The position numbers and the translations under genes were made by a program. Below are positions 2,543 to 35,670 of a stretch of 64,000 nucleotides of DNA, piece after piece. Each line of letters opens with the position of its first letter. Positions within the stretch are counted from its first letter, which is position 1. The stretch spans positions 6,342,501 through 6,406,500 of the forward strand of contig NZ_CP088285.1 in assembly GCF_011516645.4 (NCBI RefSeq), written 5' to 3'. The DNA comes from Bradyrhizobium septentrionale (GTDB taxonomy: Bacteria > Pseudomonadota > Alphaproteobacteria > Rhizobiales > Xanthobacteraceae). Under the pieces are notes generated by a model that saw only the letters and a list, made by a program, of their open reading frames with translations, did no database searches and was not told the origin of the DNA.

Positions 2543-2559
2543 TGGTATACAAAATACCA
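2543..2559 (-). promoter_or_regulatory. GntR-type operator, site A (CBS gene promoter)
   Basis: Perfect palindrome TGGTAT-ACAAA-ATACCA. On the minus strand it starts 2 bp after a TTGACA hexamer; 17 bp downstream of that hexamer lies CAGAAT. A repressor bound here would cover the promoter of the CBS gene. The spacing is the same as at sites B to G. Confidence 0.75.
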
Positions 2560-2682
2560 AATGTCAACGTGGCCACGGCAGAAATCTATCACCGGGAATT
2601 CACTGAAATAGGCAGGGTCGCTGACATTTCGGACGATTTTGAGCCGGTGCAGCGACCGGACCTTCTACCGACCCAAGTCGAT

Positions 2683-2699
2683 TGGTATCTGGCATGCCT
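2683..2699. promoter_or_regulatory. GntR-type operator-like sequence, site B
   Basis: TGGTAT-CTGGC-ATGCCT, one mismatch from the consensus. It lies between the transporter terminator (2709-2739) and the CBS promoter, about 175 bp from the nearest start, so it may be an auxiliary site or a chance match. Confidence 0.35.
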
Positions 2700-2708
2700 G
2701 GCCGCGCC

Positions 2709-2739
2709 TAAAGAAAGAGGCGCACCGAGGTGCGCCTCT
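2709..2739 (-). terminator. Rho-independent terminator of the first OxlT-like gene
   Basis: Perfect 10-bp stem AGAGGCGCAC / GTGCGCCTCT with a 4-base loop, followed on the minus strand by TTTCTTT. It lies 66 bp after the transporter stop codon. Confidence 0.85.
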
Positions 2740-2766
2740 GTCAGTTCGGGAGGAAGTCTCGAAATC

Positions 2767-2803
2767 AGGCCGTCTCGTCAGGCCGTCTCGTCAGGCGGTC
2801 TCG
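2767..2803. repeat. 13-bp tandem repeat abutting a stop codon
   Basis: AGGCCGTCTCGTC occurs twice in tandem (2767-2779, 2780-2792), followed by a third partial copy AGGCGGTCTCG. The array ends directly at the transporter stop codon (2805-2807), so its copy number does not affect the protein. Confidence 0.7.
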
Positions 2804-2804
2804 A

Positions 2805-4121
2805 TCAAGCGGTCTTGGCGCTCGTTGCGGTTTCGGTTGCGGCGGCAGCCTCGTTGCCGTTGATGAAGGCGCGGCGCATCGGCTTGATCACGAACAGCGC
2901 CATCAGCGCCGCGGTGGCATTGAGCGCGACCGCGATCACGAACACCGCCTGCCAACCATAGCTGGCGGCGACGATGCTGGCGGCCGGCACCAGCAGCGCG
3001 GCGGTGCCCTTTGCCGTGTACAGCATGCCGTTGTTGGTGGTCGCGAACTTCGAGCCGAAGGTGTCGCCGCAGGTCGCCGGGAACAGCGAGTAGATCTCGC
3101 CGAACACGCCGAAATAGACCGCGGTTGCCAGCACGAACACCAGCGGGTTGTGGCCCCAGGTGGAGAGCGTCAGCAGCATCAGCGCGCCGGTACCGAACGC
3201 GATGAACATGGTGTGCTCGCGGCCGATATTGTCGGAGACCCAGCCGAAGAACGGCCGTCCGAAGCCGTCGAAGATGCGGTCGAGTGAGATCGCAAAGGTC
3301 AGTGCCGCCATCTGGAAGCCGGCGAGCGTCACCGGCGTGTTGGCGATCTTGTAATCGTGCGCGATCGGCGCGATCTGCGCCGCCGCCATCAGGCCGCCGG
3401 AGGCGACCATCACGAACACCAGATACATCACCCAGAAGATCGGGCTGCGCAGCACCTGCGGCGGCGTGAAGTCGATCTTGGTCTGCGGCAGATTGAGCTG
3501 CTTCTTCTTCGGCGGGATCGTGACCGCAGGCTTCTGGATGAAGAAGGCGAGCAGGAACACGATCAGGCCTTGACCGATGCCGAAATCGAAGAACGCTGTC
3601 TGATAGCCGCTCGAGGCGATCATGTTGGCGATCGGCACCACGGTCAGCGCCGCGCCGGCGCCGAACCCTGCGGCCGTTGCGCCCGCGGCAAGGCCGCGGC
3701 GGTCGGGAAACCATTTCAGCGCATTGCCGACGCAGGTGCCGTACACCGAGCCGGCGCCGATGCCGCCGATCACCGCCGCGGCGTAGAGCGCGGTGAGTGA
3801 ATCAGCGTACGAGTTCAGCACCCAGGACAGCGTGATCATGACGCCGCCGAACATGATGACGATCCGCGGGCCGTATTTGTCGACGAACCAGGCCTCGACC
3901 GGCACCAGCCAGGTCTCGGTCACCACGAAGATCGTGAAGGCGAACTGGATCGCCGCGCGGCCCCAATGATGCGTGCCGTCGATCGGGTCGACGAACAGCG
4001 TCCAGCCGTATTGCAGGTTCGCGATCATCGCCATGCAGACGATGCCCATGACGAGCTGCAGCCAGCGGAAGCCACTGGACGAAGGTTGATCTTGTGTGAC
4101 GGCAGTATTGCTGGAAACCAT
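2805..4121 (-). CDS. OxlT-like MFS transporter (oxalate/formate antiporter family), copy 1
   Basis: A 438-residue 12-helix major facilitator of the oxalate:formate antiporter family (OxlT itself is 418 residues). Family motifs include YGWTLFV in TM1, DKYGPR in loop 2-3, GIGAGSVYGTCVGNALKWFPDRRGLAAG, and LYTAKG in TM11. R289 (FGRP) and K371 (LYTAKG) are 82 residues apart, matching the Arg272/Lys355 oxalate-binding pair of OxlT; that equivalence is inferred. The ATG at 4121 follows GGGAGG. An in-frame ATG 165 bp upstream is rejected because it lies within a repeat. Operator site C is 80 bp upstream. Sequence and regulon membership support a role in importing oxalate or a related dicarboxylate. 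Confidence 0.88.
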   Translation of the reverse strand: MVSSNTAVTQDQPSSSGFRWLQLVMGIVCMAMIANLQYGWTLFVDPIDGTHHWGRAAIQFAFTIFVVTETWLVPVEAWFVDKYGPRIVIMFGGVMITLSWVLNSYADSLTALYAAAVIGGIGAGSVYGTCVGNALKWFPDRRGLAAGATAAGFGAGAALTVVPIANMIASSGYQTAFFDFGIGQGLIVFLLAFFIQKPAVTIPPKKKQLNLPQTKIDFTPPQVLRSPIFWVMYLVFVMVASGGLMAAAQIAPIAHDYKIANTPVTLAGFQMAALTFAISLDRIFDGFGRPFFGWVSDNIGREHTMFIAFGTGALMLLTLSTWGHNPLVFVLATAVYFGVFGEIYSLFPATCGDTFGSKFATTNNGMLYTAKGTAALLVPAASIVAASYGWQAVFVIAVALNATAALMALFVIKPMRRAFINGNEAAAATETATSAKTA

Positions 4122-4200
4122 CAAGTCCTCCCGAGCGCGCTGGTCTTGTGACCGAGTGTCGCAATTATTGTGGCGTATCGTCGCAAGCGCCGCTGGAAGT

Positions 4201-4217
4201 TGGTATACTATATTCCA
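4201..4217 (-). promoter_or_regulatory. GntR-type operator, site C (first OxlT-like promoter)
   Basis: TGGTAT-ACTAT-ATTCCA, one mismatch from the consensus, 80 bp upstream of the start at 4121. Confidence 0.65.
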
Positions 4218-4268
4218 GAAAGCAAGCCCATCTTTCTGCTGCGTCGCAGCAAATCTGGCAGACGAAGC

Positions 4269-4308
4269 GCCGGAACCGGGGTCCATTTCGCTCGAAAACC
4301 GCTCTGGA
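4269..4308. repeat. R1 repeat fragment
   Basis: Partial R1 copy (GGAACCGGGGTCCATTTCGC then TCGAAAACCGCTCT) between the two transporter genes. Confidence 0.6.
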
Positions 4309-4313
4309 AGAAA

Positions 4314-4342
4314 TGAAAACGCCCGGCTTTTGGCCGGGCGCT
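4314..4342 (-). terminator. Terminator of the second OxlT-like gene
   Basis: Stem GCCCGGC-TTTTG-GCCGGGC (4321-4339), followed on the minus strand by GTTTTCATTT. It lies 30 bp beyond the stop codon at 4369. Confidence 0.8.
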
Positions 4343-4368
4343 TTCGTCAGCAGGAGTGAGGTCGTTGT

Positions 4369-5661
4369 TCAGGCCATAGCCGATTTCGCGACCACGATCT
4401 TTCGCCACGGTTTGAGCAGGGCGATCGCGAGCAGCGAGGCGAGGATGTTGGCGCCTGCCGCGATGATGAACACGCTGTCCCAACTGCCCGACGACTGCTG
4501 CATGTAGTTCGCGATCGGCACCAGCAGCGCCGCGGTGCCTTTCGCGGTGTAGAGCAGCCCCGCATTGGTAGTGGCGAACTTGCTGCCGAACGTGTCGGTG
4601 CAGGTCGAGGGGAACAGCGAGTAGATCTCGCCCCAGGCAAAGAACACGAAGCCCGAGAGCAGCACGAACCACACCGGATCGTGTCCCCAGAGGTAGAGCA
4701 TCCAGATGCCGAAACCTTCCATGCCGAAGGCGATGAACATCGTGTTCTCGCGGCCGATCATGTCGGAGATCCAGCCGAAGAACGGACGCGTCAGGCCGTT
4801 GAGGACGCGGTCGATGGTCGCCGCGAAGGTCACGGCCGTCATCGTCACCGCCATCAGCGTCACCGGCACGCTGTCGACCTTCCAGTCGACCGCGATCGGC
4901 TTCAGGTTCGCCGTCACCATCAACCCGCCGGCGCCGACGATCACGAACATGAAGTACATCAGCCAGAAAATCGGCTGCCGCAGCACTTCGGTCGGCTGAT
5001 AGTTGCGCCGGGTCTGGATGATGTTGGCATTGGCCACGACCGCCGGCACCTGTCCGGCCTTCGGCGCCAGCAGGAAGAAGGAGAGCAGCACGATGATGAT
5101 GCCCTGGCCGAGACCGAAATAGAGGAAGGTGGTCTGGAAGCCGGAGTCCTTGATCATCGCCTGGATCGGCGCGACCGTGAGCGCCGAGCCCGCGCCGAAG
5201 CCGGCGGCGGTGATGCCGGCGGCAAGTCCGCGCTTGTCGGGAAACCATTTCAGCGCATTGCCGACGCAGGTGCCGTAGACACCGCCGGCGCCGATGCCGG
5301 CGACGATCATGCCGAGATAGTAGCCGTTCAGCGTGGTCGCCTGCGCGTTGATCGCCCATCCGATCGCGCAGAGGATGCCGCCGACCAGGACGACGATGCG
5401 CGGACCGTATTTATCGACGAACCAGCCCTCGACCGGCACCAGCCAGGTCTCGAACAGCACAAAGAGCGTAAAGGCCCACTGGATCGATGCGCGATCCCAT
5501 CCAAACTTCTTCTGGATGTCGGGGACGAAGAACGTCCACCCGTATTGATAGTTTGCGATCATCACCATCGCGGCGACGCCGATCGCGAGTTGCGTCCAAC
5601 GATATGTGTCGCTGACACGCGCGGCCGCCGGGGCCGCAGTTGCCTGAACCATGTCCGCCAA
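4369..5661 (-). CDS. OxlT-like MFS transporter (oxalate/formate antiporter family), copy 2
   Basis: A 430-residue paralogue of the neighbouring transporter, with the same order of motifs: YGWTFFVPDIQ, DKYGPRIVVLVGG, GIGAGGVYGTCVGNALKWFP, TRPFFGWISDMIGREN and LLYTAKG. The start is probably a TTG at 5661, because GGAGG lies 5 bases before it; an ATG three codons downstream (5652) would be 14 bases away. Operator site D is 53 bp upstream. Each transporter has its own promoter and terminator, so they are expressed separately. The pair may differ in substrate (oxalate versus another C2-C3 dicarboxylate) or affinity; the sequence cannot tell. Confidence 0.88.
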   Translation of the reverse strand: MADMVQATAAPAAARVSDTYRWTQLAIGVAAMVMIANYQYGWTFFVPDIQKKFGWDRASIQWAFTLFVLFETWLVPVEGWFVDKYGPRIVVLVGGILCAIGWAINAQATTLNGYYLGMIVAGIGAGGVYGTCVGNALKWFPDKRGLAAGITAAGFGAGSALTVAPIQAMIKDSGFQTTFLYFGLGQGIIIVLLSFFLLAPKAGQVPAVVANANIIQTRRNYQPTEVLRQPIFWLMYFMFVIVGAGGLMVTANLKPIAVDWKVDSVPVTLMAVTMTAVTFAATIDRVLNGLTRPFFGWISDMIGRENTMFIAFGMEGFGIWMLYLWGHDPVWFVLLSGFVFFAWGEIYSLFPSTCTDTFGSKFATTNAGLLYTAKGTAALLVPIANYMQQSSGSWDSVFIIAAGANILASLLAIALLKPWRKIVVAKSAMA

Positions 5662-5713
5662 TTGATCCTCCCAGTGCGCCCTTGTCGTTGCTTATGGCGC
5701 GCGACCGGCATCT

Positions 5714-5730
5714 TGGTATCTGATATGCCA
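5714..5730 (-). promoter_or_regulatory. GntR-type operator, site D (second OxlT-like promoter)
   Basis: Consensus match TGGTAT-CTGAT-ATGCCA. On the minus strand TTGAAC lies 2 bp before it and CAAGAT follows 17 bp after TTGAAC, so the operator fills the spacer of the promoter. Confidence 0.72.
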
Positions 5731-5811
5731 AGGTTCAAGCTGTCGCAGCGGTAACGCGCGCTTTTGCCGCACAGGACTCAGTGGGCATCGCGGAACAGTA
5801 ATTCAGCGCGC

Positions 5812-5845
5812 AAAGAAAATGGCCCCGAAAATCGGGGCCATTGGT
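5812..5845 (-). terminator. Probable terminator of the 45-residue protein gene
   Basis: Stem GGCCCCGA/TCGGGGCC with an AAA loop, extended by ATs, followed on the minus strand by ATTTTCTTT. It is 175 bp beyond the stop codon at 6021, with an R1 repeat between. Confidence 0.65.
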
Positions 5846-5918
5846 CGAAGGTTTAATGTCGGGTCGGGTTTCGCGACGAAAGCCGCATCCGGTGGAGAGC
5901 GCCGGAAAACCCTTGCCT

Positions 5919-6024
5919 AGAGCATTTTTCGGTTCTGATTGAATCAGAACCGAAGCTCTAGATTCTTGTTTTGACGCGTTTTCTTCACGCGAACCGGTGT
6001 CCACTTCGCTCGAAAACGCTCTAG
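5919..6024. repeat. Dispersed intergenic repeat, family R1 (copy 2)
   Basis: Full-length R1: inverted repeat CGGTTCTGATTGAATCAGAACCG, then GCGTTTTCTTCACGCGAACC and CCACTTCGCTCGAAAACGC. It runs up to the 3' end of the small gene at 6021. Confidence 0.88.
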
Positions 6025-6158
6025 AGGCCGAAGCGCGGCAGATCGCCGTTTCGGTTGGAGATCTCCGCGCTCTTCATCAGCAGGCGGTCGATCGAGGCCA
6101 GCAGGCGGGCGAACAGGGTGGAGGAGGGCGCGAGCGCGAAAGCGGTGGTCTTGGACAT
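6021..6158 (-). CDS. 45-residue protein in the oxalate regulon, function unknown
   Basis: Encodes a small basic protein (MSKTTAFALAPSSTLFARLL at the start, RNGDLPRFGL at the end) with a short amphipathic helix in the middle. I do not recognise it; the size and RNGDxPR ending recall short alphaproteobacterial proteins of the DUF1127 kind, but this is only a resemblance. It is likely real: AAAGGGG lies 6 bases before the ATG, and the upstream region has a recognisable promoter (TTGTGC-17-TAATTT) with operator site E inside. The regulatory link to oxalate transporters is its most informative property. Confidence 0.6.
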   Translation of the reverse strand: MSKTTAFALAPSSTLFARLLASIDRLLMKSAEISNRNGDLPRFGL

Positions 6159-6216
6159 TGGTGTCCCCTTTGGCTGGAAGCCAGCAACGGGCCGGCTCAT
6201 CATCTGCAGCCAAATT

Positions 6217-6233
6217 ATGTATACCAGATGCCA
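6217..6233 (-). promoter_or_regulatory. GntR-type operator, site E (small-protein promoter)
   Basis: ATGTAT-ACCAG-ATGCCA: one perfect half-site and one half with two mismatches, 5-bp spacer as in the other sites. On the minus strand it sits between TTGTGC and TAATTT (17-bp spacing), 59 bp before the start at 6158. Confidence 0.5.
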
Positions 6234-6346
6234 GGCACAACGGGCTTGTTTGCATAGCAGCATTCACGACTGTGCAATGCAGCAAAACCGGCTGGTTGGC
6301 ATCCCAGATTGAGGGGGGGCGCGGATAGAATCCGGACCCCTAAGGG

Positions 6347-6819
6347 TCAGAATCTCCAGCCAAAACTTGCCTTTACCGAGTGATCCTGCACCCGGTCGGC
6401 GAGCTGGCCGACATAGGCGATGCCGAGGCTGGCCAGCGGCGTGATCTTGAGGTCGAGCCCGCCTTCGACCAGCGCCGCGTTGCGGGCCAGCGGCACGCCG
6501 GCCACGCTAAAACTGGTTCCAAGGTTCTGGAACCCAAGCGCCGCCGTCGGGGTCACGTCACCGAAGGCGTACTGCCAGGCCACCGAGGCGCGCGCGGCGC
6601 CAGCTGCATGCCGCCCGTCAGGGCGAAGCTCGGGGCGATGCGCGCGCCGAGGGTGGAGTAGCCGACATCTTCGCTGGTGCCGGCGCCGCGCAGTGCGGCC
6701 GCACCGGTGCCGCCGGTCTCGGCAAAACTGTCGGTGTCGAGGTGGGCCCAGGCGAGGCCGGCGAACGGCTCGAGCGCGGTGCGGCCGAGCGACAGCCCAT
6801 AGCCGATCTCGCCGAACAT
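6347..6819 (-). pseudogene. Autotransporter beta-barrel fragment (truncated and frameshifted)
   Basis: The remains of the C-terminal translocator domain of a type V autotransporter. The first part reads FGEIGYGLSLGRTALEPFAG ... GARIAPSFALTGGMQLAPR. After a shift in the CG-run near 6588-6600 the other frame continues AWQYAFGDVTPTAALGFQ ... VKASFGWRF, ending in the aromatic residue typical of outer-membrane barrels. Removing two bases of the CG-run restores PRASVAWQYAFG. The passenger domain and signal peptide are missing; at the 5' side the barrel is joined directly to a LuxR fragment on the other strand. Confidence 0.75.
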
Positions 6820-6837
6820 TTGCGCCGTGGTCGCGTC

Positions 6838-7058
6838 AGCCGCGCCAGATCGAGGTGGCGTCGTGGATCGCCCAGGGCAAGTCGAACGAGGAGATCGCGG
6901 GCATCCTCGGCGTCGGGCTCGATGCCGTGAAGGCGCACGTCAAGGCGATCAACAGCAAGATCGATTCCGACAGCCGGCGTGCCGCGATCGTCATCGCCCA
7001 CACCACGCCGCCATTCGCCGATCTGCCGCCGCTGTGGAAGCTCGGGCTGGAGGGCTGA
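6838..7058 (+). pseudogene. LuxR/GerE-type HTH regulator fragment
   Basis: Only the C-terminal DNA-binding part is left: RQIEVASWIAQGKSNEEIAG, ILGVGLDAVKAHVKAINSKI, then about 30 residues to a stop. This is the classic GerE helix-turn-helix. No start codon or receiver/sensor domain precedes it; the upstream bases belong to the reversed autotransporter fragment. It is an inactive remnant unless expressed as a fusion. Confidence 0.7.
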
Positions 7059-7195
7059 AGACCGGCAAGGCCAAGGCGATGCGCTTCTCGACTCTGTCGG
7101 CGATCTGCCGCGAGCTGGACTGCCCACCGGGGGATATTCTGGAATATGTGCCGGGCGATGAGGGCGGCGATACTGAGAACGGTGAGGGTGGCTGA
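7048..7195 (+). pseudogene. XRE-type (HTH_26) regulator fragment
   Basis: The C-terminal third of a small Cro/C1-type repressor: LKTGKAKAMRFSTLSAICRE then LDCPPGDILEYVPGDE and a stop. The first helices (usually RLDRLMAERK...) are missing because the sequence joins the LuxR fragment at about 7050. Two unrelated regulators truncated at the same junction point to a deletion. Confidence 0.65.
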
Positions 7196-7360
7196 TCCGA
7201 TGCGCGATTGACCGAAATCGCTCGGGCTTCATTCAAAATTGAGCATTCGGCGAATTGCTGGTTGACGAAATTCGCTGATGCAACCTATTTGCGGCGTGGC
7301 TGCCGATATTCGGACGCGTGCGGCCAAGATTCGTGATCTTGTTACAGCCGCCAGCAACCT

Positions 7361-8548
7361 ATGCGCGGAAGCAACGTGCCAGATCAAGCGCCTGTTTCGG
7401 GGCACCGCAATCCGCGCGCGCTCCTGTCTCGCGAAGTGACGATCTATTTGGTCGTCCAGTTCGTGCTGACGTGCGTAGCATTTATTCCCGGCGCGATTAC
7501 CGTGGGGATATTGCTGTTCATCGTGCCCGGCTCGGTGCTCATCGTGTCCGTCACGCTGCTCGTCTATTCGATCGCCCTGCTGCCCGCTTATCTGATCAAT
7601 CGACACCTTGGAAAGCGCTGGCTCGCAGCGGGCGTGGCGTTCCTCGGCCTGGCCGCCGTTGCGCTGCTGCCCCACTTCATCGACGGATACCTGCTGCACC
7701 GTCTCGTCGCGTCGGACGTCTCGTATCCGCAGAGCTCATTTCAGCCGCGATCTTTCGAGCTGCCGTATCAGGATAGGGACATGTCCTGGACGAATTGGCG
7801 GGGACAACCATTGATCAAGCCGCCGCCGCCATGCGCTGATCTTTGCCAGCAATTGCTGTTCGAGGGCAATGTCGATCAGGTTTTTGTCCACGGTGACTCG
7901 AGCGGGGATCCATTGGCGAATGGCACAATCGTGATCACGGGAGCCAAGGCTTATCGCCTGGTCAGTGACGGATCGAAGCATACGTTCCGTCCGGCTGACC
8001 TAAGCCACGACAGTTCGGCTCAGGAAATTCCAGTTGAGCAGGCGCTGAACCCGACCAAGTTCTTCAAGCCGAGGTGGCGGCGGTTTCGCCTCCAACAGCA
8101 ACAAGGCTCGTGCCCCGCGACCCCCAGCATCGTCAAACTCTCACAGGAGGGACGATGCCTGATCGAGGACGTTGTCGACAGCGCCGATGCCGACGTCGTC
8201 TTGTCGATCTCCGATCCTGTCCCTGTACGCAAAGATAACGGTCCGAGCGATCCGTGTGAGGTCCTTCCCTATCGCGGGATTCAGGATGGACCCACGACAG
8301 TGACCATCGCGGAGCGGCATGAGGGCAAGTTGATCCCGGTCGAGATCAAGACAACGTTGGTGGCGCGATACGCGACACTTCCGTTCTACTTCAGCGTAAG
8401 GCCGGCAGGCCAACTCAACCTGTGTCTGGGCGTCGCGAGCGATCCGTTTCCGCGCAGCCACGCCGACCCGTATGAGATGATCAGCCGTCGCTATGGCTTG
8501 GCGATCGCGCGGGCAGAGGGTTCAGACCGGCCGCCACGATCGCGCTGA
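7361..8548 (+). CDS. Membrane protein of unknown function
   Basis: 395 residues. Three to four hydrophobic segments lie between about residues 25 and 115 (VTIYLVVQFVLTCVAFIPGA, GILLFIVPGSVLIVSVTLLV, WLAAGVAFLGLAAVALLPHF). A soluble domain of about 270 residues follows, with several cysteine pairs (CADLCQQ, GSCPATP, GRCLIED, SDPCEV), perhaps a periplasmic domain with disulfides. I recognise no family. The ATG at 7361 has no clear ribosome site; a GTG at 7376 after GGAAG is an alternative. Base composition is a little less GC-rich than in neighbouring metabolic genes. It stands alone between gene remnants and a sensor kinase. Confidence 0.7.
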   Translation: MRGSNVPDQAPVSGHRNPRALLSREVTIYLVVQFVLTCVAFIPGAITVGILLFIVPGSVLIVSVTLLVYSIALLPAYLINRHLGKRWLAAGVAFLGLAAVALLPHFIDGYLLHRLVASDVSYPQSSFQPRSFELPYQDRDMSWTNWRGQPLIKPPPPCADLCQQLLFEGNVDQVFVHGDSSGDPLANGTIVITGAKAYRLVSDGSKHTFRPADLSHDSSAQEIPVEQALNPTKFFKPRWRRFRLQQQQGSCPATPSIVKLSQEGRCLIEDVVDSADADVVLSISDPVPVRKDNGPSDPCEVLPYRGIQDGPTTVTIAERHEGKLIPVEIKTTLVARYATLPFYFSVRPAGQLNLCLGVASDPFPRSHADPYEMISRRYGLAIARAEGSDRPPRSR

Positions 8549-9049
8549 CACCCTCCACCAAGCCATCGGAAATATCCGACCGAGAGCGCGCTCCCGTCAT
8601 CCAAACAAGAATGGCCGCGGTTGCCCGCGGGCATTTGTCGATCTGATCGAGTGCTACGATTACTCGGCGGCCTGCTTGGGTGTTCTGGTTTGTCGCCCTG
8701 GTTTGGAGTTCCGCCGCGCCTCGTAAATCACGGCTGTGGTTTGCCCCTTTTGCCCGGACAAGATGCAGATGGCGCTAAGGTCCGCTTCTGACCCGAAGCG
8801 GTCAATAAAGCGGCAGCGAGAGTTCTTGCGCCAACAGGGAAAATGATCGCTGATGGTCTCGCCGACAGGCGGCGGGATCGGGCCGATTCGTATTCCGGAG
8901 GGCGCCGTGCCTAGTGTACCATCGCTGTTAGGTCAATGGTGCTGCCCGATGGCCGCTGGTTCGGGGCGCCTCTCTACGCACGATCGTGCGGCCATGTTTT
9001 GGTCAAAACTGCATCCGCATTCTTGAGATGCCCACTGCAAAGGCTCGCG
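8549..9049. other. Intergenic region with hairpin and terminal-codon remnant
   Basis: Contains a stem-loop at 8611-8634 (ATGGCCGCGG / CCGCGGGCAT) that copies the frc terminator at 16211-16238. Next to it, on the minus strand, is an open frame at 8660-8932 without ATG/GTG near its 5' end that finishes PKQAAE-stop. About 90 codons are open (SDHFPCWRKNSRCRFIDRFG, then SEADLSAICILSGQKGQTTA). It could be a broken gene or repeat-derived sequence. The rest shows nothing I can name. Confidence 0.4.
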
Positions 9050-11653: not shown

Positions 11654-11735
11654 CCGGTCGCAGCATCGCCGATCCCGCCGCGATCGATCGGAGTGAGCGG
11701 CTGTCCTGAATTCAATTTCGCTTCGCACCCCAAAA

Positions 11736-11770
11736 CAAAAAGGCCGCCGGAAACCGGCGGCCTTTGAAAT
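11736..11770. terminator. Bidirectional terminator
   Basis: Perfect 10-bp stem AGGCCGCCGG-AAA-CCGGCGGCCT (11741-11763) flanked by A/T runs on both sides. It ends the kinase transcript on the plus strand. On the minus strand it follows a short remnant at 11792-11830 that reads [14 protein letters not shown], the same last codons as frc. Confidence 0.8.
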
Positions 11771-11888
11771 TTTGCTCCGTGAGAAGGTCGGCTTACTCCG
11801 CCGCCTGCTTGCGCGGCGGATCGAGCGCGAGGGATCATCGCGACGGTGGCCAAGATGTGTTCGCTGCGCGAGGCCGTTGTGCCGTTCA

Positions 11889-11902
11889 TTGATCTGAATC
11901 AA
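11889..11902 (+). promoter_or_regulatory. FixK/FNR box upstream of napE
   Basis: Perfect TTGAT-CTGA-ATCAA, the consensus site for FNR/FixK-type regulators, 82 bp before the napE ATG. In Bradyrhizobium, napEDABC is a known FixK2 target induced at low oxygen, so the site fits its context. Confidence 0.88.
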
Positions 11903-11983
11903 CGGTCGGCGGACCGTCGCGGGTTAAGTTGACGTCCAAGGCAGCGGCCCGGATGCCGTCCCCCAACGTCCCAAGTGAGAGAC

Positions 11984-12175
11984 ATGATCATGGTGGTCGC
12001 AGACGGCGACGCAGGTGCGCGGCGTCGCCAAACCCGGATGGAAATCTTCGCTTTCCTGTTCCTGACCGCCATCCTGATGCCGGGGCTCGCGGTCGCGACG
12101 GTGGGGTCATACGGACTGGCGGTCTGGATCTACCAAATGGTAGCCGGCCCTCCCGGTCCGCCGCCGCCGCATTGA
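11984..12175 (+). CDS. napE: Periplasmic nitrate reductase, NapE component
   Basis: A 63-residue single-span membrane protein with the typical helix MEIFAFLFLTAILMPGLAVA, then VGSYGLAVWIYQMVAGPPGP. It is the first gene of napEDABC, 17 bp before napD. Its function is not well defined even in studied organisms. A GTG at 11975 and an ATG at 11990 are possible alternative starts; GTGAGAG serves as ribosome site for the ATG chosen. Confidence 0.85.
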   Translation: MIMVVADGDAGARRRQTRMEIFAFLFLTAILMPGLAVATVGSYGLAVWIYQMVAGPPGPPPPH

Positions 12176-12192
12176 CAGGGAGAGACATCGTT

Positions 12193-12507
12193 GTGCTCAA
12201 GACCGCGATCAATCGCCGTACGCTGATCACCGGCCGCGCCTTGACGGCGGAGCGCGTCGTGGCGCCACCCGGCGGCGAGATCGCCAGCATCTTGGTCCAG
12301 GCCCGGCCCGAGCGCCTTGATGCGGTCGAGGCCGACATCCTCGCCCTTTCCGGCTGCGAGATTTTTGGCCGCGACCCCAGAGGCAAGCTCGTCGTGGTGG
12401 TCGACGCACCCAATGCTGGTGCGCTCGGCGCGACGCTGAACATGATCGCTCTGTTACCGCACGTCCATTCCGCCTCGCTCGTGTTTCACGCCATCGACGT
12501 CTGCTGA
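12193..12507 (+). CDS. napD: NapD, chaperone for NapA maturation
   Basis: 104 residues, the usual size of NapD. NapD binds the twin-arginine signal of NapA and delays export until the molybdenum cofactor is inserted. Visible features are the ferredoxin-like core GEIASILVQARPERLDAVEA and the segment GCEIFGRDPRGKLVVVVDAP. The start is a GTG at 12193, 10 bases after GGGAG; no ATG is in frame near it. It lies between napE and napA with short gaps. Confidence 0.88.
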   Translation: MLKTAINRRTLITGRALTAERVVAPPGGEIASILVQARPERLDAVEADILALSGCEIFGRDPRGKLVVVVDAPNAGALGATLNMIALLPHVHSASLVFHAIDVC

Positions 12508-12528
12508 AATGCGCCGGGGAGACCAGCC

Positions 12529-15042
12529 ATGACCGAAATCAAGATCGACCGTCGCCAGATGCTGAAGCTGGAGGCCGCCGCGATCGCCGCCGCGGCCGGT
12601 GGAATGCCGGTTGCGTCGGTCGCAGCAAACCTCGTCACCGAACGCGATGCCAGCGAACTCGACTGGAACAAGGCTCCTTGCCGCTTCTGTGGCACCGGCT
12701 GCAGCGTCATGGTGGCAACCAAGGACAATCGCGTCGTTGCCACCCACGGCGATATCAAGGCCGAGGTCAATCGCGGCCTCAACTGCGTGAAGGGGTACTT
12801 CCTCTCCAAGATCATGTACGGCCACGATCGCCTGACGCAGCCGATGTTGCGCAAGACCGACGGCAAGTACGACAAGAACGGAGACTTCACTCCGGTCTCC
12901 TGGGACGAAGCGTTCGCCGTCATGGCCGAGAAGTTCAAGGCGGCGCTGAAGCAGCGCGGGCCGAGCGGCATCGGCATGTTCGGCTCCGGCCAATGGACGA
13001 TCTGGGAGGGCTATGCGGCTTCAAAACTGTTCAAGGCCGGCTTCCGCTCCAACAACATCGATCCCAACGCGCGCCACTGCATGGCCTCCGCCGTGGTCGG
13101 CATGATGCGTACCTTCGGCATGGACGAGCCGGCCGGCTGCTACGACGACATCGAGGCCACCGATGCCTTCGTGTTGTGGGGCTCCAACATGGCGGAGATG
13201 CACCCGATCCTGTGGACGCGGGTGACCGACCGCCGGCTGTCGGCGGCGCATGTGCGGGTCGCCGTGCTCTCGACCTTCGAGCACCGCTCGTTCGACCTCG
13301 CCGACATCGGGATCGTATTCACGCCGCACTCCGATCTCTACATCCTCAATGCGATCGCCAATCACATCATCAAGACCGGGCGCGTGAACAAGGATTTCGT
13401 CGCGGCGCATACCGTGTTCAAACGTGGCCAGACCGACATCGGCTACGGCCTGAGGCCAGAGCATCCGCTGCAGAAGAAGGCGACGGGCGCGGCCAAGGCC
13501 AACGATGCAACCGATATGACTTACGACGACTACGTCAAATTCCTCACCGACTACACGCTGGAAAAGGCGGCGATGATGTCGGGTGTGCCGCTCAATCGTC
13601 TGGAGGCGCTGGCCGAGCTCTACGCCGATCCGAAGACCAAGGTCGTCAGCTTCTGGACCATGGGTTTTAACCAGCACACCCGCGGCGTCTGGTGCAACAA
13701 TCTGGTCTACAATCTTCACCTTCTGACCGGGAAGATATCGGAGCCCGGCAACAGTCCGTTTTCGCTGACCGGCCAACCCTCGGCCTGCGGCACCGCACGC
13801 GAGGTGGGTACCTTCTCGCATCGGCTCCCGGCTGACATGGTCGTCACCAACAAGGCGCATCGCGACAACGCGGAGGAGATCTGGAAGCTCCCGGAAGGCA
13901 CGATTCCCGACAAGCCGGGCTATCACGCGGTGTTGCAAAGCCGGATGCTGAAGGACGGTCTGCTCAACGCCTACTGGGTGCAGGTCAACAACAATTTGCA
14001 GGCCGGTCCCAACATCAACGAGGAAACCTATCCGGGCTTCCGCAACCCCGACAATTTCATCGTGGTTTCGGAAGTCTATCCGACCGTCACTGCGCTCGGC
14101 GCCGACCTGATCTTGCCGACCGCGATGTGGGTGGAAAAGGAAGGCGCCTACGGCAATGCCGAGCGGCGCACCCAGTTCTGGCACCAGCTCGTCACCGCGC
14201 CGGGCGAGTCGCGTTCCGACCTCTGGCAGCTGATGGAGTTTTCCAAGCGCTTCAAGATCGAGGAGGTCTGGCCGGAAGAGTTGCTGGCGAAGAAGCCGGA
14301 GTATCGCGGCAAGACGGTGTTCGATGTGCTCTATCGCAACGGCCAGGTCGACAGGTTTCCGGTCTCCGACATCGCGCCGGGCTACGCTAACGATGAGGCC
14401 AAGGCGTTTGGCTTCTATGTCCAGAAAGGGCTGTTCGAGGAATACGCAAGCTTCGGCCGCGGCCACGGCCACGATCTCGCGCCGTTCGATGCCTATCACG
14501 GCGAGCGCGGACTGCGCTGGCCCGTCGTGAACGGCAAGGAGACCAAGTGGCGGTTCCGCGAAGGCTCAGATCCGTACGTCGGGCAGGGCAGAGGCGTGCA
14601 GTTCTATGGTTTTGCGGATGGCAAGGCGCGCATCTTTGCGCTTCCCTACGAACCGCCGGCGGAAGCGCCTGACAGCGAATACCCCTTGTGGCTCTCAACT
14701 GGCCGCGTGCTGGAGCATTGGCACTCCGGCACCATGACCCGCCGCGTGCCCGAACTCTATCGCGCGTTTCCTGAGGCCGTCTGTTTCATGCATCCGGATG
14801 ATGCGCAGGAGGCCAAGCTACGACGCGGCGACGAGGTCAAGGTGATCTCTCGCCGCGGCTTTATCCGGGCGCGGCTGGAGACTCGTGGCCGCGACCGGCC
14901 GCCGCGGGGCCTGGTGTTCGTGCCCTGGTTCGATGAGTCGAAGCTGATCAACAAGGTGACGCTCGACGCCACCGATCCGCTCTCGCTGCAGACCGACTTC
15001 AAGAAATGCGCGGTGCGTATCGAGAAGGTGCTGCCCTCATGA
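12529..15042 (+). CDS. napA: Periplasmic nitrate reductase catalytic subunit NapA
   Basis: 837 residues, normal for NapA. It reduces nitrate to nitrite in the periplasm using Mo-bis-MGD and one [4Fe-4S] cluster. The Tat signal is RRQMLK at residues 8-13 followed by an alanine-rich stretch; it deviates from RRxFLK by having Met at the fifth position. Cluster ligands are C51, C54, C58 and C86 (CRFCGTGC ... NCVKG). The molybdenum ligand is C184 in [12 protein letters not shown]. The stop overlaps the napB start (ATGA), consistent with translational coupling. Confidence 0.96.
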
Positions 15043-15509
15043 TCAGGAACCTGCGCATCGTCCTGCTCGTCCTGGCGATCGGGGCCGGCACCGGTACGTT
15101 GGCAGCGCAATCGCTGAATTCCGGGCTGCGCGGGCCGACGCCGCTCGATAATGAAGGCCCGGCTCCGCCAATGATGCCGACGCGCAACACGTCCGAGAGG
15201 GAGATCAGGAACTATCCCGAGCAGCCGCCCGTGATCCCGCATTCGATCGACGGCTACCAGATCGATCTGAACAGCAACAAATGCCTGTCCTGTCATGCGC
15301 GCGCCCGCACGGGCGAGTCGCAGGCGCCGATGGTCTCGATTACCCATTTCATGGACCGCGACGGCCAGTTCCTTGCGTCGATCTCGCCGCGCCGGTTTTT
15401 CTGCACCGAATGTCACGTACCGCAGAGCGTGAGCAACCCGCCCGTCAGCAACGACTTCGTCGACATCGACACCATGCTGAGCCGCGCGGCTCCGGGCGGC
15501 CGTCGATGA
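15039..15509 (+). CDS. napB: NapB, periplasmic diheme cytochrome c
   Basis: 156 residues with an N-terminal signal peptide ([20 protein letters not shown]) and two CxxCH heme sites, at residues 82-86 (CLSCH) and 122-126 (CTECH). It passes electrons from NapC to NapA. The ATG at 15039 overlaps the napA stop by 4 bases, which decides the start; the frame is open for 11 more codons upstream. Confidence 0.95.
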
Positions 15510-16144
15510 GCGCAACCGATTCGCAAACCTCGAAAGATGGTGTCCTCCGACGCGCATGGGCCTTCGCGCGCGAGCTGTGGGGTGTGCTGGTGCGGCCGAG
15601 CGCGGTGTTCGGGCTCGGTGTACTGGTGATCGCGGGCTTCGTCGCCGGCGTTATTTTCTGGGGCGGCTTCAATACCGCGCTCGAATTGACCAACACCGAA
15701 AAATTCTGCACCGGCTGCCACGAGATGCGCGAAAATCTGTTTGCAGAGCTGAAGTCGACCATCCATTTCTCCAATCGCTCCGGCGTTCGCGCCACCTGCC
15801 CGGACTGTCACGTTCCGCATAACTGGACCGACAAGATCGCGCGCAAGATGCAGGCCTCGAAGGAGGTCTGGGGCCATTTGTTCGGTGTCATCGGCACCCG
15901 CGACAAGTTCGCCGACAAGCGGCTCGAGCTCGCGCTGCATGAGTGGGCCCGTTTCAAGGCCAACGATTCGCTCGAATGCCGCAACTGTCACAGCGCGGAA
16001 TCAATGGATATCACCAAGCAGTCCCCCCGGGCGTCGGTGGCGCACCAGCGCTTCCTGTTTACCGGAGAGAAGACCTGCATCGATTGCCACAAGGGCATTG
16101 CACATCACTTGCCCGACATGCGTGGGGTTGCGGGCTGGCAGTGA
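15506..16144 (+). CDS. napC: NapC, membrane-anchored tetraheme cytochrome c (quinol dehydrogenase)
   Basis: 212 residues of the NapC/NirT family. One N-terminal membrane helix (about residues 30-53) precedes four CxxCH motifs at 68-72, 98-102, 158-162 and 191-195. It oxidises membrane quinol and feeds NapB/NapA. The ATG at 15506 overlaps the napB stop. No napF, napG or napH is present, as usual for this napEDABC type. Confidence 0.95.
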
Positions 16145-16204
16145 ACGCCGGCTTCGCCGGGGACCCCAATGTCCCCATCGATTGGAGGAGCCGACGACCA
16201 CCAC

Positions 16205-16244
16205 AAACAAAAATGGCCGCGGTTGCCCGCGGCCATTTGTCGTT
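16205..16244 (-). terminator. Terminator of the frc (gntR-oxc-frc) transcript
   Basis: Perfect 12-bp stem AAATGGCCGCGG-TTGC-CCGCGGCCATTT (16211-16238), followed on the minus strand by TGTTTGTGG. It lies in the 117-bp gap where nap and frc converge. A near copy is at 8611-8634. Confidence 0.82.
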
Positions 16245-16261
16245 TGATCTGAGTGCAGCCG

Positions 16262-17539
16262 TTACTCCGCCGCCTGCTTGCGCGGCGGATCGAGTGCGCC
16301 GGAATCGTGGATCTCGGCGACCTGGTGGTCGGAGAAGCCGAGCACCTCGCGCAGGATCTCGTCGGTGTGCTCGCCGAGCAGCGGCGAACGCGCGACATCG
16401 CTCGGCGAATCCGACAGCTTGATCGGGTTGCCGACCGAGATGTACTTGCCGCGGGTCGGATGATCGACCTCGACCACGGTGCCGGTCGCGCGCAGCGACT
16501 GGTCTTCCGCGATCTCCTTCATCGACAGGATCGGGCCGCAGGGGATGTCGTCCTTGTTGAGGATCTCCATCGCCTCGAATTTTGTCTTCGTCATCGTCCA
16601 CTGTTCGATGCGACCGAAGATCTCGTTCAGGCGGGGTAGGCGGGCCGGCGGCTTGGCGTAGTTCGGATCGGTCTTCCAGGTCGGCTCGCCGATCACGTCG
16701 CAGATCTTCTCCCAGACCGGGGCCTGGGTGATGAAGTAGATGTAGGCGTTCGGGTCGGTCTCCCAGCCCTTGCACTTCAGGATGCGGCCGGGCTGGCCGC
16801 CGCCGGAATCGTTGCCGGCGCGTGGCACGGCGTCGCCGAACGGAATGCCTTCGCCGAACTGGCTGTATTCCTTCAGCGGGCCGTGGGCGAGGCGCTGCTG
16901 GTCGCGCAGCTTGACGCGGGCGAGATTGAGCACGCCGTCCTGCATCGCCGCGGTGACGCGCTGGCCCTGGCCGGAATGGGTGCGCTGATAGAGCGCGGTG
17001 ACGATGCCGAGCGCGAGATGCAAGCCGGTGCCGGAGTCGCCGATCTGCGCGCCGGTGACCAGCGGCAGGCCGTCGCGGAAGCCGGTGGTCGAGGCGGCGC
17101 CGCCGGTGCACTGCGCGACGTTCTCGTAGACCTTGCAGTCCTCATACGGGCCGGGGCCAAAACCCTTGATCGAGGCGACGATCATCTTCGGGTTGATGGC
17201 GTGGATCTTCTCCCAGGGGAAGCCCATGCGATCGAGCACGCCGGGGCCGAAATTCTCGACCAGCACGTCGCAACTCTTGATCAGCGCGGTCAGCACTTCC
17301 TTGCCCTTCGGGTTCTTGGTGTCGAGCGTGATCGAGCGCTTGTTGTGGTTCAGCATGGTGAAATACAGGCTGTCCACGTTCGGAATGTCCTGCAGCTGGC
17401 CGCGCGTGATGTCGCCGACGCCGGGACGCTCGACCTTGATCACGTCGGCGCCGAACCAGGCCAGCAACTGCGTGCAGGTCGGACCCGACTGGACGTGGGT
17501 GAAATCGAGAATGCGAACGCCCTTGAGCGCCTTGGTCAT
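16262..17539 (-). CDS. frc: Formyl-CoA:oxalate CoA-transferase
   Basis: 425 residues (Oxalobacter Frc has 428), CaiB/BaiF class III CoA-transferase. It moves CoA from formyl-CoA to oxalate. Aspartate D168 in [14 protein letters not shown] matches the catalytic Asp169 of Frc, and the GGGQPG loop at residues 246-251 is the flexible glycine loop of true Frc enzymes. GGAG lies 9 bases before the ATG. It is downstream of oxc with a 65-bp gap and no own operator, so it is probably transcribed from the gntR promoter. It ends in DPPRKQAAE, a tail repeated in vestigial form at 8660 and 11792. Confidence 0.95.
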
Positions 17540-17604
17540 ATCGTTTGCTCCGTGTACTCTGGTCTACCCCTGCACCCGCAGGGAAAATGGGTTGAAGGGG
17601 TGGC

Positions 17605-19335
17605 TTACTTTTTCTTCAGAACGCTCTGCGGATTGAGGTTGCCGATGCGGCCGCTCTCCGAGCCCGCTGCCGGATCGATCACCGCGTTGATCAGCGTCGG
17701 CTTGCCGGAATCCAGCGCCGCATTGACCGCGCGCTTCAGCTCGTCGGGGGAGGTGGCGTTGACGCCGACGCCGCCGAACGCTTCCATCATCTTGTCGTAG
17801 CGCGAGCCCTTGACGAACACGGTGGTCGCCGGATCGTCGCCGGCAACGTTGACGTCGGTGCCACGATAGATGCCGTCATTATTGAAGATCACGATGCAGA
17901 TCGGCAGCTTGTAGCGGCAGATGGTCTCGACCTCCATGCCCGAGAAACCAAACGCGCTGTCGCCTTCGACCGCGAGCACGGGCAGGCCGGTCTCGACCGC
18001 AGCCGCGATCGAATAGCCCATGCCGATGCCCATCACGCCCCAGGTGCCGACGTCGAGCCGCTTGCGCGGCTTGTGCATGTCGACGACGCCGCGGGCGAGG
18101 TCGAGCGTGTTGGCGCCTTCGTTGACGAAGATGGTGTCCGGACGTTCCGCGATGATGGCGCGCAGCGCGCCGAGCGCACCGTGATAATCCATCGGCGAGG
18201 CGTTGCTCATCAGCTTCGGCGCCATCTTGGCGACGTTGTCGTCACGCTTCTTCGCCACCGTGGCGAGCCAGTCGCTCGGCGCGGCCGACCAGTTCGCACC
18301 CATCGCGTCGAGGAACGCGGACACGCAGGAGCCGATATCGCCGACCACGGGGGCGACGATCTCGACGTTGGAATCCATTTCCTTCGGCTCGATATCGACC
18401 TGGATGAACTTCTTCGGGGCCTCGCCCCAGGTCTTGCCCTTGCCGTGCGAGAGCAGCCAGTTGAGGCGGGCGCCGATCAGCATCACGACGTCGGCGTCCT
18501 TCAGCACGGTCGAGCGCGCAGCACCTGCGCATTGCGGATGCAGATCGGGCAGCAGGCCCTTGGCCATGCTCATCGGCAGGAACGGCACGCCGCTCTTCTC
18601 GACGAAATTCTTGATCGCCTCGTCGGCCTGCGCGTAGGCCGCGCCCTTGCCGAGGATGATCAGCGGACGCTTTGCGCTCTTAAGCACGTCGAGCGCGCGC
18701 TTGACGGATGACGGGGAGGGGATCTGCTCCGGCGCCGCGTCGATCACCTTGACCAGCGATTTCTGGCCGGCGTCGGCGTTCATCACCTGCGAGAACAGTT
18801 TTGCGGGCAGGTCGAGATAGACGCCGCCCGGGCGGCCCGACACCGCGGCGCGGATCGCGCGCGCGAGCCCAATGCCGATGTCCTGGGCGTGCAGCACGCG
18901 GAACGCCGCCTTGCACAGCGGTTTGGCGATCGCGAGCTGGTCCATCTCCTCATAGTCGCCCTGCTGCAGGTCGACGATCTCGCGCTCGGAGGAGCCGGAG
19001 ACCAGGATCATCGGGAAGCAGTTGGTGGTGGCGTGGGCGAGCGCCGTGAGGCCGTTGAGGAAGCCGGGTGCCGATACCGTGAGGCAGACGCCGGGACGCT
19101 TGGTCAGGAAGCCGGCGATCGATGCCGCATAGCCGGCGTTCTGCTCGTGGCGGAACGAGAGCACGCGAATGCCCGCCGCCTGGGCCATGCGGCCCAGGTC
19201 CGTGATCGGGATACCCGGCACACCATAGACGGTGTCGATGCCGTTGAGCTTGAGCGCATCGATGACGAGATGGAAGCCATCGGTCAGCTCTTGCTCGGTG
19301 CCCGGTGCCTCGGACTTCGTAGCGGTATTCAGCAT
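17605..19335 (-). CDS. oxc: Oxalyl-CoA decarboxylase
   Basis: 576 residues, thiamine-diphosphate enzyme that turns oxalyl-CoA into formyl-CoA and CO2. The catalytic glutamate is in [16 protein letters not shown]; the ThDP/Mg motif is [13 protein letters not shown] ... FNNDGIYRG, with the Oxc-type YRG active-site turn. The ATG at 19335 is 9 bases from GGGAG; the ATG two codons upstream (19341) is only 3 bases away, so the shorter form is preferred. It lies between gntR and frc on the same strand. Confidence 0.95.
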
Positions 19336-19425
19336 CGGCATCGTCTCCCTGGTCGTTCTTGTTCGGACGATCTGAATGTCGTCTGAAGCGTGTGTGAACT
19401 CTAAGTCTTAGGTGAACAGTTCTCT

Positions 19426-20157
19426 CTACGTGAATAGCTCTTGGCCGTGCGCCTCGACATAGGCGGCAAGGCCAAGCGTGTGATCGCGGGCGCGCTTTTC
19501 CGCGAGTTCGGTGTCGCGCGCCTCAAGTGCCTCGATGATCCCGAGATGCTCGGGCAGCGAGGTCGCGGTACGGTCCTTGCGGCCGATCGTGAGCTGGCGA
19601 TAGCCGCGCACATGCAGCAGCAGGTCATTGGTGAGGTCGACCAGCACAGGTGATTCCGACAGCGAGATCAGCGCCTGGTGGAAGGCGATGTTGGCCTTGG
19701 AATATTCCTCGACGTGATCCTGCGGCAGGCGATCGTCGCTGAAATCCTTGAAGAAGTCGCGCAGCGACGAGATGTCCTTCTTGCGCGCGGTGGTCGTGAT
19801 CAGGCGCGCCGCCATGCTCTCCAGCGCCGCCCAGGCGCGGATCATGTCGACGATCTCCGCCTTGGTGCGGCGGACCACCACGATGCCGCGGCGCGGCACG
19901 GTCTTCACGAAGCCGTCCTGCTCGAGCATCGCGATCGCTTCGCGGATCGGCGTGCGACTGACGCCGAGACGCTCGGACAATGCGCGTTCGTCGAGCATCA
20001 CCGGCTCCGGCGTCGCGTAGATGTCCATCTTCAGGATCGCTTCCTTCAAGGCCTCATAGGCCTTGTTCTTGAAGCTGGTCTCCGGCGCGATCCGGACGAT
20101 GGCGATATCTGTGTCAGCCATGTTGGGTGACGCCTTGGTCTGTTTCGGTTCTGGCAC
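19426..20157 (-). CDS. GntR/FadR-family (FCD) regulator, probable repressor of oxalate genes
   Basis: 243 residues. The winged helix-turn-helix covers about residues 30-95 (DERALSERLGVSRTPIREAI ... DGFVKTVPRRGIVVV). The FCD ligand domain follows to the end, with candidate metal ligands in NIAFHQALI, LPEHLGII and RARDHTLGLAA. The start is a GTG at 20157, supported by GAGGAGG 9 bases upstream; an ATG 12 codons later is possible. It is first in gntR-oxc-frc and divergent from the CoA-ligase gene, with operators F and G between. The same palindrome precedes the transporter genes, so it is the best candidate for the protein that binds all of them (inference). The ligand is likely oxalate or an oxalate-derived CoA ester. 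Confidence 0.9.
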   Translation of the reverse strand: MPEPKQTKASPNMADTDIAIVRIAPETSFKNKAYEALKEAILKMDIYATPEPVMLDERALSERLGVSRTPIREAIAMLEQDGFVKTVPRRGIVVVRRTKAEIVDMIRAWAALESMAARLITTTARKKDISSLRDFFKDFSDDRLPQDHVEEYSKANIAFHQALISLSESPVLVDLTNDLLLHVRGYRQLTIGRKDRTATSLPEHLGIIEALEARDTELAEKRARDHTLGLAAYVEAHGQELFT

Positions 20158-20213
20158 GACTCGTCTCCTCCTCTTGGAGACGTCTTCTTAGCAGAAGAAA
20201 TACCCTAGATTTT

Positions 20214-20230
20214 TGGCATGCCAAATACCA
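20214..20230 (-). promoter_or_regulatory. GntR-type operator, site F (gntR-oxc-frc promoter)
   Basis: TGGCAT-GCCAA-ATACCA, exact consensus match. On the minus strand TTGACA lies 3 bp before it, so the operator overlaps the promoter spacer, 57 bp upstream of the gntR start. It implies autoregulation. Confidence 0.78.
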
Positions 20231-20295
20231 GGATGTCAAGCTGCCTATATTTTTCGATATTTTTCGACATCAAGCGACCTTGACAATTACGTTTT

Positions 20296-20312
20296 TGGCA
20301 TACCAAATGCCA
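20296..20312 (+). promoter_or_regulatory. GntR-type operator, site G (CoA-ligase promoter)
   Basis: TGGCAT-ACCAA-ATGCCA, exact consensus match, 26 bp before the ATG at 20338. TTGACA lies at 20280-20285, with the operator just downstream. Confidence 0.78.
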
Positions 20313-35566: not shown

Positions 35567-35670
35567 GGAGCCGTTTCCGTTCCGATTGGATCGGAACGGG
35601 GCTCCAGCTCTTTTGCTTGACGCGTTTTCTTCACGCGAACCGGAATCCACTTCGCTCGAAAACGCTCTAG
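35567..35670. repeat. Dispersed intergenic repeat, family R1 (copy 3)
   Basis: Full R1 element: TTCCGTTCCGATTGGATCGGAACGG, then GCGTTTTCTTCACGCGAACC and CCACTTCGCTCGAAAACGC. It lies between the divergent PYR-subunit and TctC-type genes. Confidence 0.88.

Follow-up and report, generated by a model that had tools for sequence, protein, structure and literature searches.

Candidate operators of a proposed FCD-type GntR repressor and a probable oxalotrophy regulon in Bradyrhizobium septentrionale

Oxalate is an acid common in plants and fungi, and its use by Bradyrhizobium diazoefficiens is said to have been linked to arabinose by Koch et al. in 2014. Operators of the UxuR/ExuR type carry a TGGTATACCA palindrome. 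In Escherichia coli, the FCD-domain GntR protein NanR has a (GGTATA)3 operator (PMC8012715). The sites described here resemble both. They lie in a 64,000-nucleotide stretch of the Bradyrhizobium septentrionale genome (contig NZ_CP088285.1, positions 6,342,501 to 6,406,500; hereafter the window), where seven copies of a 17 base pair (bp) palindrome are scattered among genes for oxalate uptake and breakdown. As in NanR, an FCD-type GntR protein is the likely partner, the half-site TGGTAT shares GGTAT, and several half-sites occur per operator; as in UxuR/ExuR operators, there is an inner 10-bp palindrome, TGGYATRCCA. These seven sites are very probably the operators of a GntR repressor encoded at 19426-20157, which would govern the whole oxalotrophy regulon. 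No description of a GntR oxalate regulator or operator was found in the open-access literature, judged from titles and the starts of abstracts. Regulon and operator appear to be new for a known kind of regulator, and the regulon is wider than the initial annotation of this DNA proposed.

The sites and the motif

The symmetric pattern, TGGYAT-N5-ATRCCA, is found at all seven positions first proposed. Scoring each site confirmed four perfect copies (2543, 5714, 20214 and 20296), with one mismatch at 2683 and 4201 and two at 6217. Six sites do stand shortly before start codons, with measured gaps of 25-79 bp to six genes; the site at 2683 has no start codon close by. The sites are:

Operator A: 2543..2559, plus strand; 33 bp upstream of the CBS gene and 2 nucleotides after TTGACA (read on the minus strand)
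Operator B: 2683..2699, minus strand; second site upstream of the CBS gene, 173 bp away
Operator C: 4201..4217, plus strand; 79 bp upstream of OxlT1
Operator D: 5714..5730, minus strand; 52 bp upstream of OxlT2
Operator E (weak): 6217..6233, plus strand; 58 bp upstream of the gene for a 45-residue protein
Operator F: 20214..20230, plus strand; in the gntR promoter (minus strand), 56 bp upstream of the GTG start codon at 20157 and 3 nucleotides after TTGACA
Operator G: 20296..20312, plus strand; 25 bp upstream of the coenzyme A (CoA) ligase gene, overlapping its likely -10 region

The genes concerned are:

2075..2509, minus strand: CBS-domain protein, 144 amino acids (Pfam CBS, 4.1e-23)
2805..4121, minus strand: OxlT1, oxalate/formate antiporter (TIGR04259, 652.6 bits, cut-off 335)
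4369..5661, minus strand: OxlT2, oxalate/formate antiporter (TIGR04259, 649.6 bits, cut-off 335)
6021..6158, minus strand: 45-residue conserved protein (no Pfam or NCBIfam family)
16262..17539, minus strand: frc, formyl-CoA transferase (equivalog TIGR03253, 752.3 bits, cut-off 504.2)
17605..19341, minus strand: oxc, oxalyl-CoA decarboxylase (equivalog TIGR03254, 1027.9 bits, cut-off 739.4)
19426..20157, minus strand: FCD-type GntR regulator, the proposed binder (Pfam GntR, 1.1e-12; FCD, 1.1e-21)
20338..22467, plus strand: nucleoside diphosphate (NDP)-forming acyl-CoA ligase (Pfam ATP-grasp_5, CoA_binding, Succ_CoA_lig and Ligase_CoA_2)

At up to one mismatch the symmetric pattern has six matches in the window, all among the seven, where 0.21 are expected. 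At two mismatches there are 13 matches against 4.45 expected, six of them at places beyond the seven, which leaves 6217 without significance on this pattern alone. The spacers of several copies contain a third half-site, and the best operators thus carry three half-sites rather than the two originally described. A refined asymmetric pattern, TGGYATRCCANATRCCA (TGGYATRCCA-N-ATRCCA, three half-sites 7 bp apart), recovers exactly the seven sites in 64 kb at up to two mismatches, with 0.09 expected; two are exact (20214 and 20296), three have one mismatch and two have two. In the comparison with shuffled sequence, which had been named at the outset as a possible refutation, none of 100 shuffles reached the observed count, either for the symmetric pattern at up to one mismatch or for the refined pattern at up to two. 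The refined pattern was built after inspection of the window sites; independent support therefore rests on other genomes.

The genome-wide search also suggested at the outset covered the 10.4 Mb host genome (four contigs). The symmetric pattern has nine exact matches, four of them in the window, and 47 at up to one mismatch against 13 for a reversed control. The refined pattern has five exact matches, 11 at up to one mismatch and 18 at up to two, the reversed control having four in all. Outside the window, exact refined sites precede the genes of a nicotinamide adenine dinucleotide (NAD) formate dehydrogenase (fdsB/fdsA), precede sucC within the mdh-sucC gap, and lie between a set comprising an IclR gene and glyoxylate carboligase (gcl) and a set comprising CBS, PanE-like and OxlT genes. 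The original picture of a regulon made of two blocks in the window is therefore too narrow.

Conservation and the proposed regulator

The 26 same-genus genomes examined, including that of the window, contain 98 exact refined sites and no match to the reversed control. Sorted by hand according to neighbouring gene, 52 belong to gntR/ligase (two per genome), 24 to sucC, 16 to fdsB, four to gcl/CBS and two to none of these. Operators F and G are both exact in 30/30 gntR/ligase loci of the genus, 81-90 bp apart. When the genes were picked by protein, the perfect symmetric 17-mer was found upstream of 12 of 14 CBS orthologs (13 at up to one mismatch), and a 17-mer within one mismatch upstream of OxlT1 in 23/23 ortholog rows (five genomes counted twice) and of OxlT2 in 23/23 genomes. 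For fdsB, all 26 upstream regions hold the 17-mer within two mismatches (16 exact, four with one mismatch, six with two). The 45-residue gene has the symmetric 17-mer upstream within two mismatches in 17/17 cases and the refined motif within two in 19/19 rows, the locus of the window being present twice. The sucC rows of this test were recruited by the motif itself and so do not test it independently; the count of 24 of 26 genus genomes does. Operator B is less widespread, a weaker site at similar distance occurring in only three other loci (L158, L167 and L210).

The operator thus stands upstream of both the regulator gene and the target genes and is kept there across species, as would be expected of an oxalate regulon. 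Conservation upstream of targets in each of the two window blocks also supports the earlier proposal that one regulon joins them. The arms of the motif differ in persistence. The transporters and CBS retain the outer arms while the middle arm decays, and the 45-residue gene retains the middle arm while one outer arm decays; it seems that an operator needs at least two inverted arms and works best with three.

De novo expectation maximization, run on the sequence upstream of 55 divergent gntR orthologs, gave TGGTATACCAnATACCA as the top result among 40 random starts, and the next two starts were shifted registers of related sequence. Over 150 genomes of the order, with GntR presence defined as E <= 1e-50 and the motif as an exact match, GntR occurs in 42 genomes, the motif in 29 and both in 27 (Fisher p = 7e-17; p = 1e-14 without the genus), although these p-values assume independence between genomes, an assumption that relatedness violates. 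A GntR ortholog is present in 27/29 motif-positive genomes against 15/121 motif-negative ones. Among 80 named loci, divided by an identity split set before scanning, the 34 ortholog loci (41-94% identity) contain 24 exact sites and 51 at up to one mismatch in 0.60 Mb, and 10 of the 24 fall outside the seven Bradyrhizobium-type loci (L210-L216). The 46 paralog FCD-GntR loci contain none and six, respectively, in 0.79 Mb. Within the genus the regulator is nearly universal: an ortholog of at least 90% identity occurs in 59/60 genomes, the exception (G035) being 80% complete, and the proteins of six named loci (L210-L215; five Bradyrhizobium, one Bradyrhizobiaceae) are 93-94% identical. Site conservation, the de novo motif and the co-occurrence of motif and regulator all support the initial choice of the GntR protein at 19426 as the probable binder.

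Its domain scores (Pfam GntR 47.8 bits, cut-off 27; FCD 77.9 bits, cut-off 24.3) are those of an FCD (FadR-subfamily) regulator. The FCD metal site is formed by conserved Asp/Asn and His; N156, H160, H182, H204 and H226 are invariant in 20 orthologs and are candidates for such residues. The predicted structure has a mean predicted local distance difference test score (pLDDT) of 80.9, with residues 1-25 under 50 and the first helix from residue 29, and resembles FCD regulators in a Foldseek search.

Promoter geometry and alternative explanations

Read in gene direction, TTGA starts 9 nucleotides upstream of the gntR operator in 30/30 cases and 8 nucleotides upstream of the CBS operator in all 12 scored. 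At the same distance of 8 nucleotides, the OxlT2 operator is preceded by TTGA, TTGT or TTGC (23/23), and that of OxlT1 by TTGC (22/23 rows), so operator C also has a -35-like hexamer at constant spacing. The ligase operator starts 16 nucleotides after the start of TTGACA and would cover the -10 region; the -35 count for this gene took the distal site and is uninformative on the proximal one. At sucC, TTGC lies 12 nucleotides upstream in 22/23 rows, which was not counted as a -35 match and, the rows having been recruited by the motif, is again no independent test. With the operator sitting in the -35/-10 spacer or over the -10 region, polymerase would be blocked once protein is bound. This repressive arrangement had been claimed for sites A, D, E and F; it holds at A, D and F, each with a conserved -35-like hexamer, and is less certain at E, as described below.

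Several observations weigh against the proposed GntR regulon. No -35-like hexamer lies beside the operator in 17/20 scored fdsB promoters or in 9/15 scored promoters of the 45-residue gene, and OxlT2, OxlT1, CBS and the 45-residue gene have weaker versions of the motif. Of the 42 GntR-positive genomes of the order, 15 are without an exact motif; GntR has no match in two motif-positive genomes (G130, 92% complete; G136, 76%), and 7/34 named ortholog loci have no site within one mismatch. A one-mismatch site at chvE (6425684) was dropped as a regulon member, being present within one mismatch in 1/23 genomes. The loss of the motif from remote orthologs likely represents drift.

The missing hexamer makes repression less certain at fdsB and the 45-residue gene, where activation or another geometry is possible. 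A more general activating role, in which GntR activates instead of represses or does both depending on the promoter, has a precedent in E. coli GlcC, an activator within the FadR subfamily (PMC11323563), and would suit the fdsB promoters. It nevertheless seems unlikely, since the operators fill the -35/-10 spacer at gntR, CBS, OxlT1 and OxlT2 and would cover -10 at the ligase.

Three half-sites are possible in operators of the IclR family, as in PcaU, and the sites here could in principle be bound by the BhcR/IclR-type regulator encoded beside glyoxylate carboligase. The IclR gene adjoins operator-bearing gcl clusters, is no more than about 4 kb from gntR in 19/26 genus genomes, and is associated with the motif over the order (IclR in 45/150 genomes, both in 15, p = 0.007). 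However, the association falls to p = 0.08 without the genus, 14/29 motif-positive genomes have no IclR gene, and G006 and G025, two genomes of the genus that lack it, retain three and four exact sites. The motif occurs in 14/21 genomes with both regulators, in 13/21 with GntR only, in 1/24 with IclR only and in 1/84 with neither. It does not follow the IclR gene, and on this co-occurrence IclR/BhcR was rejected as a very improbable binder.

The motif might also belong mainly to another FCD-GntR paralog of the same genome, given that the host genome has 19 matches to the GntR protein at E <= 0.001 and that related FCD proteins can share similar half-sites. This is less credible still: the best paralog among those listed is only 32% identical to the GntR at 19426, the paralog loci have no exact site, and gntR bears its own operators in every one of the 30 genus loci. 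That the palindromes are repeats or chance intergenic matches can be dismissed with near certainty, for although two mismatches to the symmetric pattern are found at the six additional window places and in 53/2000 random 250-bp pieces of the window (22-64 kb), one mismatch or fewer is found in 0/2000, the refined motif within three mismatches in 0/1500 random 230-bp pieces (22-63 kb), the reversed control in none of the 26 or 150 genomes, and the sites are kept upstream of orthologous genes.

Predicted regulon and comparison with known systems

In the proposed GntR model, dimers would occupy the half-sites TGGYAT/ATRCCA, an inverted pair 14 bp apart, when inducer is absent; the best operators would have a third half-site in the middle, at 7 bp from both outer ones, and the occupied operator would block RNA polymerase. 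Oxalate, or a product of it, would cause GntR to release the DNA, allowing expression of the two OxlT antiporters, Frc, Oxc, GntR itself, the CoA ligase, the CBS protein and the 45-residue protein. Outside the window, the set would extend to NAD formate dehydrogenase as the last step, to sucC (succinyl-CoA ligase) as a possible source of the CoA priming oxalate, and to the cluster of gcl, PanE-like and third OxlT genes for assimilation via glyoxylate. Uptake by OxlT, activation and decarboxylation by Frc/Oxc, formate oxidation by Fds and assimilation through PanE-like/Gcl are one pathway. PanE2 of Methylobacterium extorquens is a putative oxalyl-CoA reductase, characterised by its authors (PMC8411744), and the PanE-like gene here may act in the same way.

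Arabinose feeds glyoxylate and oxalate, and when B. diazoefficiens grows on it, Frc, Oxc, Gcl, Hyi (hydroxypyruvate isomerase), tartronate semialdehyde reductase and the NuoF-like blr2316 increase together (PMC5996035, Table 2). Neither sucC nor OxlT is among the selected proteins of that table. To judge from the NuoF domains of FdsB, blr2316 may be FdsB, and these data fit the content of the regulon. Frc and Oxc of B. diazoefficiens are also expressed in soybean nodules (PMC4926349). The present analysis supplies a candidate regulator, a precisely defined operator and a list of targets, all open to bench tests in a model soybean symbiont.

The unexpected member is sucC, and the switch apparently includes the succinyl-CoA-making step of the tricarboxylic acid (TCA) cycle. 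Succinyl-CoA can substitute for formyl-CoA as CoA donor to oxalate (PMC12188714), and sucC fits the regulon for this reason. In the E. coli study of YfdE (PMC3720670), YfdE and UctC had no detectable succinyl-CoA/oxalate activity; use of this donor therefore depends on the enzyme. Genes resembling sucC/sucD (30-87% identity) are present in the GntR cluster of 10/34 named ortholog loci, with carriers including Rhodobacteraceae, Bosea, Jannaschia, Roseovarius and Granulosicoccus. A site also stands some 32-33 bp ahead of where a sucC-like match (35-37% identity) starts, with one mismatch in L238 and exact in L240. The presence of sucC among the targets makes succinyl-CoA priming of oxalate open to direct test.

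A tentative extension, which we think possible but would not favour, is that oxalate control is written into the TCA cycle through the internal mdh-sucC operator together with graded three-arm and two-arm operators. The internal operator would let oxalate raise succinyl-CoA synthetase separately from mdh, which is proposed because succinyl-CoA, and perhaps also the product of the NDP-forming ligase, would prime oxalate to oxalyl-CoA. Three-arm operators (gntR/ligase, sucC and many fds) would be held tighter than the two-arm transporter sites, giving uptake first and burning later.

The NDP-forming CoA ligase scores under every listed NCBIfam cut-off, giving no substrate assignment. The 45-residue protein has 348 homologs at E <= 0.01, and its gene shows 154/46/214 differences on codon positions 1/2/3 among 16 orthologs, the pattern expected of coding sequence. 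Between the oxlT and nap blocks, window 6360-7200 resembles, by eye, decayed remnants of larger genes. A dispersed 29-bp repeat, GCGAACCGGTNTCCACTTCGCTCGAAAAC, occurs within one mismatch at 2012-2040, 5989-6017, 35635-35663 and 62253-62281, the first two copies being intergenic by eye. The IclR gene beside gcl in L179 (G004:C1:3823611-3824471) carries one in-frame TAA.

Elsewhere, the two remaining exact refined sites of the genus set (L119:5564 and L118:3473, from the close relatives G004 and G010) are at none of the four main targets; by eye, the one in G004 precedes a gene whose start resembles gamma-glutamyltransferase. In the host genome, a one-mismatch site lies at the start of an open reading frame (3546100), and two exact symmetric sites, at 845845 (inside an open reading frame) and 2388473 (before an ABC binding protein), miss the refined motif even when two mismatches are allowed. 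At sdhC the 17-mer is found within one mismatch in only 4/25 loci and the third arm is mostly gone. The 10-bp TGGYATRCCA is present in 20/26 sdhC loci (L290-L315) against 1/23 chvE loci, in a scan of one strand (enough for a palindrome) and of whole loci rather than the promoter alone. It may be a weak target either of the GntR at 19426 or of another regulator.

Five GntR clusters have a different thiamine diphosphate (ThDP) enzyme, 25-26% identical to OXC, following gntR:

Non-OXC ThDP enzymes: L228:10806-12467, L229:8413-10095, L232:5038-6483, L233:6908-8548 and L242:7015-8667

Among NCBIfam models they score best, though still under the cut-offs, against those for acetolactate synthase and 2-hydroxyacyl-CoA lyase. 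A Frc homolog adjoins the enzyme in four of the five clusters, and the contig ends in the fifth. A possible reading is an alternative C2-acyl-CoA lyase under the same GntR control.

Compared with NanR, whose half-sites are direct repeats, the operator here has an inverted pair with a third half-site 7 bp on. The NanR model matches the GntR protein weakly (64.9 bits, cut-off 260; 18% identity). Ahead of the winged helix, both proteins appear to begin with a poorly ordered stretch; in NanR a 32-residue extension gives cooperativity, and the low-pLDDT residues 1-25 of the model here may or may not act alike. Operators of UxuR/ExuR lack the third arm, their targets are in hexuronate rather than oxalate metabolism, and the GntR at 19426 scores far below both the UxuR and ExuR models. 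The folds closest to the predicted model in Foldseek are a Brucella GntR protein (7u5q; ranks 1-2) and, from rank 3 onwards together with PmiR (7xp1), Agrobacterium VanR Atu1419 (6za7, 6z74 and 6za3, with DNA). The Brucella protein and VanR are about 23-28% identical to the GntR at 19426, and to our knowledge neither is known as an oxalate regulator.

The arabinose/oxalate system of B. diazoefficiens, which belongs to the genus of the nearest named relatives, shares frc-oxc and the gcl pathway genes with the locus described here; the excerpted text of PMC5996035 covers its proteins rather than an operator and does not mention GntR. In Paracoccus, a similar pairing of a GntR repressor (GlcR) and an IclR regulator (BhcR) acts on the C2 acids glycolate and glyoxylate, but GlcR, unlike the regulator proposed here, controls glycolate oxidase (PMC11323563).

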